Below, piece by piece: positions 7,270 to 12,536 of a DNA stretch of 38,477 nt (position 1 is its first letter; each line of letters begins with the position of its first letter). The notes under the pieces were generated by a model. That model worked only from the letters and a program-made list of their open reading frames with translations. It ran no database searches and was not told the origin of the DNA. A program made the position numbers and the translations under genes. Source of the stretch: a virus. Location of the stretch: IMG/VR virus record IMGVR_UViG_3300028025_002417, positions 1 to 38,477 of that record. One strand, 5' to 3'.

Positions 7270-7563
7270 ATGAATATTGATTTGTTTCGCCCTACTATAG
7301 AATGGATTAAAGATGACTTTAAGTCTAACAGAATTCGCTTTGCTGTTGAGTTGCTTGCTTGGGCTATTAGCATTGGCTGTAGTATTGTTATGGCACTCAC
7401 GGTCCCCACTCCTCCGCTTCTTACTCTTTATCCTATCTGGATCCTTGGCTGTGCTATGTATGCTTGGGCTAGTTGGACTAGGAAATCTTTTGGCATGTTG
7501 GCTAACTATATTCTGCTAACAACTATCGATACCATAGGTTTGATACGAATGCTTGCCGCTTGA
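7270..7563 (+). CDS. Conserved phage integral membrane protein
   Basis: 97 residues from ATG 7270. A soluble N-terminus (IEWIKDDFKSNRIRF) is followed by three hydrophobic segments (about residues 24-43, 49-63 and 75-95). From memory, similar proteins with LAWAISIG and SFGMLANY motifs are common in cyanophages and other aquatic myoviruses; function unknown. A PnuC-like transporter fragment was considered, but too little supports it. Confidence 0.75.
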   Translation: MNIDLFRPTIEWIKDDFKSNRIRFAVELLAWAISIGCSIVMALTVPTPPLLTLYPIWILGCAMYAWASWTRKSFGMLANYILLTTIDTIGLIRMLAA

Positions 7564-7588
7564 CTTTCCATGACACTTGAGTTATAAT
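7560..7588 (+). promoter_or_regulatory. Sigma70-type promoter, spacer 17
   Basis: TTGACT (7560-7565), 17 bases, TATAAT (7583-7588). The leader is about 20 bases and carries GAGGAG before the 7614 gene. Confidence 0.8.
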
Positions 7589-8319: not shown

Positions 8320-8476
8320 AGAAAAAGTTATTTACTTTTTGAAAGAATTATTGGACCCTGAAGGTTTCGGATGGGCAGTAACAGATGAGGTGCGTAGAGA
8401 AGCGCACCAACTTTTAATTATGATAGAAAGTGAAAGTATCAATGAGCAAGATTCAACAGTTCGGCAGACTGCATGA
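8303..8476 (+). CDS. Small conserved protein (57 residues)
   Basis: Starts MKTKVEEKVIYFLKELL and contains DPEGFGWAVTDEVRREA; alpha-helical. The start lies inside the end of the 8086 gene and the end overlaps the next gene, as expected in this compact operon. Not recognised beyond a resemblance to small phage and bacterial proteins with a DPEGxGWAVT motif. Confidence 0.65.
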   Translation: MKTKVEEKVIYFLKELLDPEGFGWAVTDEVRREAHQLLIMIESESINEQDSTVRQTA

Positions 8477-8744
8477 AACGTTTGACCCTAGTAACAAAAA
8501 ACATCGAAAGATTTTCCATGATGTGTTGAGATATCGCACATGGGGTAGGTCTCCAATTTGCTTTTGGGCAGAAGACGATTCTTCAGGTTCTAACAGTTTG
8601 ATGGACCAATGTATTAAAGCGATGGGTAAATACTATATCGAAAAAGAGTTTGGTGCATTGATAGATGACGATCCATTTATCTCCGGCGAACTGACTCGCA
8701 GTAGACCGAATCCGTGTCCACACATTAGGAAGAAATTGAAATGA
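8442..8744 (+). CDS. Hypothetical phage protein
   Basis: 100 residues from ATG 8442; a GTG at 8430 is the alternative. Starts MSKIQQFGRLHETFDPSNKKH and has RYRTWGRSPICFW. No catalytic motif. It overlaps both neighbours slightly (4 bases with the 8741 gene). Confidence 0.75.
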   Translation: MSKIQQFGRLHETFDPSNKKHRKIFHDVLRYRTWGRSPICFWAEDDSSGSNSLMDQCIKAMGKYYIEKEFGALIDDDPFISGELTRSRPNPCPHIRKKLK

Positions 8745-9466
8745 AAGTTTACATCGGACCTTATAAGAATTGGGTTGGACCATATCAGATTGCCGAAGCA
8801 CTTTGCTTTTGGGCAAAGCCTGTCGAGGATGAATATGGATACAAACGTAAGCCTGATTGGGTGCATAACTTTGGTACTTGGCTTTCTCATGGAACTACAA
8901 AAGAAGAAATTGTAGAATCAAAGAATGCTCCAGAAACTTGGCTGTTGAAACTATGTCAATGGATCGAATCTAAGCGTAATCGTAGGTCTTACATCAAGAT
9001 TGACAAATACGACACATGGTCAATGGATCACACACTCGCAATGATTGTCTTACCTATGCTGAAACAATTGCAAGCAACAAAGCATGGTGGACCCCATGTT
9101 GATGATGAAGATGTGCCAGAAGAATTGAAATCAACTTCAGCGCCAGCAAAAGAGAATGAATATGATACTGACGAAAATCATTTCAAGCGTTGGGATTGGG
9201 TATTAGATGAAATGATTTTTGCGTTTACTTGCAAGAATGATGATTCGTGGGAAGAAGCGTTTTGTTCTGGTGAACACGAATTGATTTGGACTCCAATCGA
9301 CAAAGACGGCAATGAAGTTCCCAAGAAAGACGCCAAGTTGTTTCGAATGGGTCATGGTCCTAACGACACATACAAGTGTGACTATGAAGGTATGAAAGTC
9401 GTTGAAACACGAATTCAAAACGGATTTCGCTTGTTCGGTAAATACTATCAAGCACTTTGGGATTAA
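8741..9466 (+). CDS. Conserved T4-like phage protein of unknown function
   Basis: 241 residues. The stretches IGPYKNWVGPYQIAEALCFW, DTWSMDHTLAMIVLPMLKQL and NGFRLFGKYYQALWD are, from memory, well conserved in many T4-like phages, and the order is intact here. No enzymatic motif is identified. It overlaps the upstream gene by 4 bases and ends just before the endolysin's late promoter. Confidence 0.85.
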   Translation: MKVYIGPYKNWVGPYQIAEALCFWAKPVEDEYGYKRKPDWVHNFGTWLSHGTTKEEIVESKNAPETWLLKLCQWIESKRNRRSYIKIDKYDTWSMDHTLAMIVLPMLKQLQATKHGGPHVDDEDVPEELKSTSAPAKENEYDTDENHFKRWDWVLDEMIFAFTCKNDDSWEEAFCSGEHELIWTPIDKDGNEVPKKDAKLFRMGHGPNDTYKCDYEGMKVVETRIQNGFRLFGKYYQALWD

Positions 9467-9473
9467 TTCTATG

Positions 9474-9501
9474 CTAAATACTCCTATGATAATCATAGGA
9501 G
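9474..9501 (+). promoter_or_regulatory. T4-like late promoter plus ribosome-site hairpin for endolysin
   Basis: CTAAATA (9474-9480) followed by CTCCT matches the T4 late consensus TATAAATACTCCT closely. It runs directly into an inverted repeat: CTCCTATGAT (9481-9490), one A, ATCATAGGAG (9492-9501). The 3' arm holds the AGGAG ribosome site (9497-9501), 6 bases before the endolysin ATG. Late starts near 9486 would remove half of the 5' arm. Confidence 0.75.
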
Positions 9502-9507
9502 ATAGCA

Positions 9508-10128
9508 ATGGACTTTTTTACAGAAGAGGCAGTACATCATTTAATTCCAAAAGTCAAAAACTTTGACGAATGGTATACTAATCTAAATGATATTTTACCT
9601 GAGTATGACATAGATACACCAAAGAGAGTTGCCGCATTCATGGCGCAATGTGGGCATGAATCTGGTGGATTTACTTTGATGCAAGAGAATTTAAATTACT
9701 CTGCTAAAGGTTTACGTGGTACATTCGGAAAGTACTTTCCAAATGATGATATTGCAAAACAGTACGAGCGCAAACCGCAAATGATTGCGAATCGTGTTTA
9801 TGCTAATCGTATGGGTAATGGAGATGAAGCATCTGGAGAAGGTTGGTACTTTCGTGGCAGAGGCATTATTCAGATTACAGGAAAGAACAACTACACTAAA
9901 TGTTCACAGTCATTGTTTGAAAGCAATGTGCTAGTTGAAAATCCTGATTTGTTACTTGAAGCAGAATATGCTATTCACTCAGCATGTTGGTTCTGGTCAG
10001 CCGCTAGATTGAATGAATTATCAGATTCTGGAGATATTAAGACAATGACAAAACGAATCAATGGTGGATTCATCGGCTTAGAAGACAGAATCAATCATTA
10101 CAATCATGCAATTGAAATTTTAACTTAA
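9508..10128 (+). CDS. Endolysin, glycoside hydrolase family 19
   Basis: 206 residues. A chitinase class I/lysozyme-type domain expected to cut peptidoglycan at lysis. Catalytic acid E51 is in QCGHESGGF and the second glutamate E60 is in QENLNYSAKGL. GWYFRGRGIIQITGKNNY is the signature substrate-cleft segment. There is no signal peptide, so export needs a holin, which is not identified with confidence nearby. Late-promoter and hairpin control is described at 9474. Confidence 0.93.
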   Translation: MDFFTEEAVHHLIPKVKNFDEWYTNLNDILPEYDIDTPKRVAAFMAQCGHESGGFTLMQENLNYSAKGLRGTFGKYFPNDDIAKQYERKPQMIANRVYANRMGNGDEASGEGWYFRGRGIIQITGKNNYTKCSQSLFESNVLVENPDLLLEAEYAIHSACWFWSAARLNELSDSGDIKTMTKRINGGFIGLEDRINHYNHAIEILT

Positions 10129-11939: not shown

Positions 11940-12536
11940 TTAATTGGATAGTGGATTGTCGAGTGCTTTTTTGATTTTGTTATCTACTTCAACTCTCAAT
12001 GCTCTAACTTCAGCTTGAGTTTCTTTTTGATTCTTCACTAACTCTCTGTTGATATCTTTTAATGTAGCATCAACATCACGTTTGATTTCTTTTACTGTGC
12101 CGTCAACATCACGTTTGATTTCTTTCATGCTAGAGTCAGTTAAACGTTGGTCTGTCTTACTAGAACGTTCAATGTTTTCAACAACACCCTCTAATCTACG
12201 AACATCACCCTTTAAATCTATCTTGATGGTGTCTGTGTACTCAACCATCTTGCTGGTGTTGGCATCCAAGACTTCCATCTTTTTATAGATTTCAGTTAAG
12301 TCTGGAGACACATACTTAGCAATTTTATCTTTCATGCCTTGATAGTCTTTATAGACTTCAAAGGCACCATACAAACCACCAAGTAACGATGACACTAATG
12401 TGAATGCGACCATTAGTTTTGCTGGAGTGAATTCGTATCCACCAATACTGATAACCGTGTCTTTACTTGCGTACTTCTTAACTGCCGCTTCTGCCTCGTC
12501 AATCTTAGCGTTTACGTTTTTAATTTCTTCTGCCAT
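11940..12536 (-). CDS. Membrane-anchored coiled-coil protein
   Basis: 198 residues. A charged N-terminal helix, one membrane segment (about residues 38-63, LMVAFTLVSSLLGGLYGAF) and a long heptad-rich helix. The helix contains a near-exact repeat of KEIKRDVD with GTV or ATL between copies. The overall plan resembles membrane-anchored coiled-coil proteins of T4-like aquatic phages. A spanin-like or structural role is possible; no enzymatic motif is seen. Ribosome site AAGGAAG. Confidence 0.75.
   Translation of the reverse strand: MAEEIKNVNAKIDEAEAAVKKYASKDTVISIGGYEFTPAKLMVAFTLVSSLLGGLYGAFEVYKDYQGMKDKIAKYVSPDLTEIYKKMEVLDANTSKMVEYTDTIKIDLKGDVRRLEGVVENIERSSKTDQRLTDSSMKEIKRDVDGTVKEIKRDVDATLKDINRELVKNQKETQAEVRALRVEVDNKIKKALDNPLSN

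Follow-up and report, generated by a model that had tools for sequence, protein, structure and literature searches.

A T4 gene e-type promoter-and-hairpin leader predicted to time the translation of a GH19 endolysin in uncultivated T4-like phages

The 38,477-base viral record IMGVR_UViG_3300028025_002417 from IMG/VR, called the window here, very probably carries a timing control of the T4 gene e type on a non-homologous endolysin of the GH19 family, with both the late start and its effect on translation predicted. The reading draws on the sequence and its predicted folds, on the conserved and covarying hairpin arms and, in relatives, on homologues of the late sigma and the use made of late promoters. 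Early or middle transcripts reading in from upstream would carry the whole hairpin (9472–9507), in which the stretch from the Shine-Dalgarno to the AUG would be paired, and little endolysin would be made. With a gp55-type late polymerase active, RNA would begin within the 5′ arm, near 9486. The short leader, lacking CTCCT and the outer strand, would be unable to refold and would leave the ribosome site open. The elements concerned are:

7560–7588, + strand: sigma-70-type promoter, TTGACT-17-TATAAT (11 of 12 consensus positions)
8741–9466, + strand: upstream gene, PHROG 11543, function not assigned by PHROG
9472–9476, + strand: outer helix, 5′ strand (TGCTA); overlaps the promoter box (RNA fold)
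9473–9480, + strand: T4-type late promoter box GCTAAATA, predicted −13 to −6 (sequence match)
9481–9489, + strand: 5′ arm of the inner stem, CTCCTATGA, of which CTCCT is the anti-Shine-Dalgarno part (RNA fold, covariation)
9486, + strand: predicted late transcription start; RNA from there lacks CTCCT (T4 geometry)
9493–9501, + strand: 3′ arm of the inner stem, TCATAGGAG, containing the AGGAG ribosome site (sequence, RNA fold)
9503–9507, + strand: outer helix, 3′ strand (TAGCA), running up to the start codon (RNA fold)
9508–10128, + strand: GH19 endolysin of 206 aa (Pfam PF00182, E 1.3e-9; PHROG 181 endolysin, E 8e-80)

The leader was found to read TGCTAAATACTCCTATGATAATCATAGGAGATAGCAATGG over 9472–9511, and its layout over 9472–9510 is TGCTA AATA CTCCTATGA TAA TCATAGGAG A TAGCA ATG. 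The Shine-Dalgarno AGGAG (9497–9501) is 6 nt from the ATG at 9508. As DNA, 9481–9501 is a perfect palindrome of 10+1+10, and the original prediction that AGGAG lies in the 3′ arm of a 10-bp inverted repeat was confirmed by the sequence and the predicted RNA fold. As RNA, the leader is predicted to form a 9-bp inner stem with a 3-nt loop, plus a 5-bp outer helix; the earlier description of the hairpin was thus right on the inner repeat and overlooked the pairing of 9472–9476 with 9503–9507. The fold of 9470–9530 has a free energy of −18.0 kcal/mol (z −4.4), which was equalled by none of 200 shuffles of this 61-nt stretch, while in RNA from 9486 the ribosome site is without structure (−3.4, z +0.6). 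Among the 84 called starts in the window, the endolysin stem ranks first with a start-site stem score of 22; in shuffles, a score of 20.5 was reached by 1% and 23.0 by 0.1%. Shuffling of 9481–9496 closed the site equally well in none of 2000 cases.

Opening the Shine-Dalgarno/AUG region was computed to cost 16.6 kcal/mol of free energy when the RNA reads through from upstream and 1.7 kcal/mol when it starts at 9486 (the opening cost). T4 gene e, treated by the same method, gave 16.3 kcal/mol for the long and 4.1 kcal/mol for the late RNA. When the start was moved, the cost fell from 12.8 kcal/mol at 9481 to 8.3 at 9483, 5.3 at 9484 and 2.4 at 9485, which places the switch point at 9483–9485. 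The claim that a late start upstream of 9481 would undo the control was therefore about right. The predicted folds pair the Shine-Dalgarno in long transcripts and, together with the opening energies, support the view that early read-through RNA hides it. The long RNA was predicted to be harder to open than the late RNA in all 25 distinct leaders of the window and its close relatives. The gains were small in L049 (1.0 kcal/mol) and L044 (3.1 kcal/mol), and the upper stem of L048 is imperfect. Among 18 late-promoter genes of G001, a 150-kb relative (the contig of locus L030), the long-minus-late difference was by far the largest for the endolysin (18.1 kcal/mol); a DUF6267 gene came next with 7.3 kcal/mol, and the remaining genes gave 5.6 kcal/mol or less.

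The box GCTAAATA overlaps the outer helix and adjoins the inner arm. T4 late boxes are situated at about −13 to −6, and an Aeh1 variant has a/gC at −13/−12 (PMC2988020). As GCTAAATA fits both the Aeh1 variant and the T4 box geometry, the start was put at 9486, inside the inner arm. By sequence and T4 geometry the promoter is positioned so that late RNA would lose the 5′ arm, in keeping with the original prediction that RNA from about 9486 lacks part of it. The same prediction had the late promoter overlapping the 5′ arm; the T4-type box proper is confined to 9473–9480. CTCCT was rejected as a promoter element, because it is absent after the other late boxes of G001 and of a second relative, G002; TAAATA boxes in G001 that lack a following CTCCT identify it as the anti-Shine-Dalgarno arm. 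In G001, TATAAATA-type boxes precede gp23-, gp22-, gp18- and gp19-like genes, assignments that were made by reading the sequences rather than by a search. The T4 gp55 protein, used as query, detected homologues in three relatives, G001, G002 and G004 (E about 1e-20), which points to gp55-dependent late transcription in this group; the window is a 38-kb fragment.

GH19 is the sole Pfam match of the endolysin, which is not a member of the gpe lysozyme family. Upstream of it, on the same strand, lie genes for ribonucleotide reductase subunits, a nuclease and a ClpP-like protease, which are of early or middle type. The sigma-70-type promoter at 7560–7588 is the likely source of early read-through into the endolysin, judged from its sequence; a near-identical one lies about 1.9–2.5 kb 5′ of the endolysin in many relatives. 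Between this promoter and the endolysin, the window has a terminator-like stem at 8389–8408 that may limit read-through, and no stem matching it was found in the relative L030. The stop codon of the 8741–9466 gene (9464–9466) ends 14 nt 5′ of the inner arm; at that distance a ribosome that terminates there should interfere with the outer helix but barely with the inner stem. In L021, L026 and L046 the endolysin is preceded by other sequence, yet the promoter and hairpin are retained. On the other side of the endolysin, a 198-aa protein is encoded at 11940–12536 (− strand), with a single hydrophobic segment close to its N-terminal third, a long polar tail and no Pfam match; it is a possible membrane protein.

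A scan of IMG/VR for the enzyme gave 80 relatives. The 48 nearest (L002–L049) formed the close set, with 25 distinct leaders including that of the window. All 48 have TAAATA plus a hairpin enclosing the ribosome site, and the promoter and hairpin are thus, at the sequence level, a unit that is kept in a group of uncultivated T4-like freshwater phages. The arms change together, as in L022 (TATAAT/ATTATA, G-C to A-U), L047 (CTCTTCGTA/TACGAGGAG), L046 (CTCTGTA/TACAGGGAG) and L049 (ATCCTTGTA/TACAAGGAAT); the stems of L045–L049 differ from the rest. Exchange of 5′ and 3′ halves between lineages weakened the pairing to a mean of −7.5 kcal/mol, compared with −11.5 kcal/mol for native pairs, and none of 20000 permutations was as stable as the native arrangement. 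In a strict set of seven lineages, 5 of 5040 arrangements were as stable, the native one counted among them. The true register also exceeded all slid registers in paired cells, double changes and covariation score. More weight was given to the alignment-free arm-swap test than to column counts because MAFFT misaligns the L002-type insertion. The outer helix varies between lineages, with 73% of cells paired. Outside the close set, relatives of the enzyme at 54–71% identity lack the hairpin, and nearly all lack the late box. No further clear case of hairpin and promoter was found among the distant GH19 relatives L050–L081 and L153–L216; L162 combines a late box with a weak 6-bp match whose effect is small, at 1.5 kcal/mol.

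The variation among relatives also bears on other explanations of the hairpin. It could be mainly an intrinsic terminator of the upstream early operon, with the late promoter in the 5′ arm letting late RNA escape. This is unlikely for the window, where T occupies two of the eight positions behind the stem and no terminator was called at 9481–9501, the intrinsic terminator pattern being absent. The window and 19 other distinct leaders have one to three T in these eight bases, and on that ground sequestration is clearly the better reading in the window clade. The stem moreover always includes the Shine-Dalgarno, which a terminator does not need. In the most distant leaders, L045–L049, six of the eight bases are T, so termination may contribute there, and L046 fits the pattern of an intrinsic terminator. 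In some DUF6267 leaders of related phages, a promoter of this kind is likewise followed at once by a stem and T-run. The promoter-in-hairpin layout may thus have served termination earlier, or may serve it in addition.

A DNA operator, at which a bound protein controls the late promoter, is suggested by the perfect palindrome adjoining it, but such a site would be expected to keep its sequence and spacing. In the relatives, the arms are lineage-specific, the loop lengths differ and the 3′ arm can carry an insertion, while RNA pairing holds. In eleven leaders, one position of the CTTCT/AGGAG part is a U-G pair; this keeps the RNA pairing and breaks the DNA symmetry and therefore argues for RNA rather than a DNA operator. 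The operator reading was rejected as very improbable. CTCCT and AGGAG are complementary on their own, and the pairing could be a by-product, without regulatory role, that arises where a C-T-rich extension of the promoter lies opposite a purine-rich Shine-Dalgarno. This was judged very improbable: the other late boxes of G001 and G002 lack CTCCT, and late promoters with TAAATACTCCT but without a complementary ribosome site were not found among those compared in these two genomes. The pairing also extends past the five bases, and when CTCCT and AGGAG were fixed and the rest shuffled the site was closed equally well in 12 of 2000 cases. With these shuffles and the coevolving arms of the arm-swap test, the chance reading was rejected.

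Hiding of the ribosome site in long RNA, the preferred reading, follows a known principle; what is new is its use on an endolysin of another family. In T4 gene e, early transcripts form an inhibitory structure that reduces expression about 100-fold, and late RNAs lack its 5′ portion (PMC3014915). The leader hairpin with late promoters in its 5′ arm was described by McPheeters (1986) and reviewed in PMC3014915, where soc, gene 49 and I-TevI are given as further cases. According to the same 2010 review, several T4-type phages have an e gene without such a structure, and many have no gene e. Like gene e, the window has a Shine-Dalgarno in the 3′ arm, a late box within or beside the 5′ arm and similar computed opening energies, and its late gene may likewise be reached by early transcripts. 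It differs in its enzyme family (GH19 rather than gpe) and arm sequences, in a box that lies outside the inner stem, in an extra outer helix to the AUG and in having one late promoter where gene e has two. The precedent, the near-identical opening energies, the covariation in 25 leaders, the gp55 homologues, the late promoters of the same type before gp23- and gp18-like genes, the conserved early-type promoter upstream and the apparently separate occurrence in Vibrio phages described below support the original comparison with gene e. Its alternatives, conserved or convergent, both apply in part: the control is conserved within the phage group and, because the enzymes belong to different families, convergent with T4 e.

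Hairpins of I-TevI, soc, gene 49, segB and Aeh1 mobE also hide the ribosome site in long transcripts (PMC2988022, PMC3014915), and late transcripts of I-TevI contain too little of the sequence to form the hairpin. These genes differ from the present case in being homing endonucleases, whose leader hairpins are described in PMC2988022, or other late genes, and not lysis enzymes. The putative endolysin gp67 of the T4-like methylophage Melnitz has also been described under an early promoter (PMC9004378). No report of this control on a GH19 enzyme was found in the open-licence papers searched.

Four cultured Vibrio phages, pv27, phiKT1024, phiTY18 and Va1 (L222, L307, L308 and L223), have a GH19 endolysin leader of the form TATAAATACTC...GGAGTATTTT-ATG. 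In pv27 (L222 559) and Va1 (L223 559), the late box TATAAATA is predicted to pair with bases around the ribosome site. The opening cost was 11.5 kcal/mol for the long and 2.5 kcal/mol for the late RNA of pv27, and 13.0 and 2.6 kcal/mol, respectively, for Va1; both phages have a gp55 homologue. As in the window, a late box accompanies the 5′ arm and the Shine-Dalgarno is in the 3′ arm, in front of the same protein family. Unlike in the window, the stem is a different one and the box itself is paired; the proteins are about 52% identical. On the GH19 tree, the hairpin/promoter trait requires four changes, partly as a result of the cut-off, which scored L044 and L049 as without it. The Vibrio branch is long, so the design was likely, rather than provably, gained there independently of the window clade. 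No report of it for a Vibrio phage endolysin was found in the open-licence literature searched. The gene e rule has so far been described for T4 and its close relatives. The same logic on an unrelated endolysin, with compensatory changes and recurrence in Vibrio phages, indicates that blocking endolysin translation in early read-through RNA is selected in itself. As the Vibrio phages are cultured, the design is directly testable in the laboratory.

More tentatively, and with rather less than even confidence, a late promoter inside one arm of a hairpin abutting the start codon might be a control element that T4-like phages use generally and have evolved repeatedly, serving unrelated endolysins and at least one other conserved gene (DUF6267), and acting as a terminator too in some lineages. 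If so, a single element would end early transcription and gate late translation in those lineages. The hairpin arms of DUF6267 leaders coevolve strongly (25 distinct leaders; 0 of 20000 permutations); some of these leaders have a terminator-like T-run, and most are without a clear Shine-Dalgarno.

In the DUF6267 (PF19782) leaders L227–L306, the late box is followed immediately by a hairpin adjoining the ATG. The genes include those at 79705–80931 (− strand) of G001 (L219/L227) and 58872–59369 of G002 (L221). A structure model of modest quality (mean pLDDT 74) gave no PDB match. In the alignment of L227–L306 the proteins have an invariant KWDG, a GD motif and EGxV, motifs that recall covalent nucleotidyltransferases (ligases). 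In G002 (contig 3300022752_000022; 58872–61189, L220/L221), the gene is broken immediately behind KWDG. An intein-like N-terminal part (weak match to Pfam PF14890) comes first, then a separate ORF at 59431–60066 with its own late box, and then the remainder of DUF6267. From its sequence, this locus looks like a fractured or split intein whose endonuclease is free-standing.
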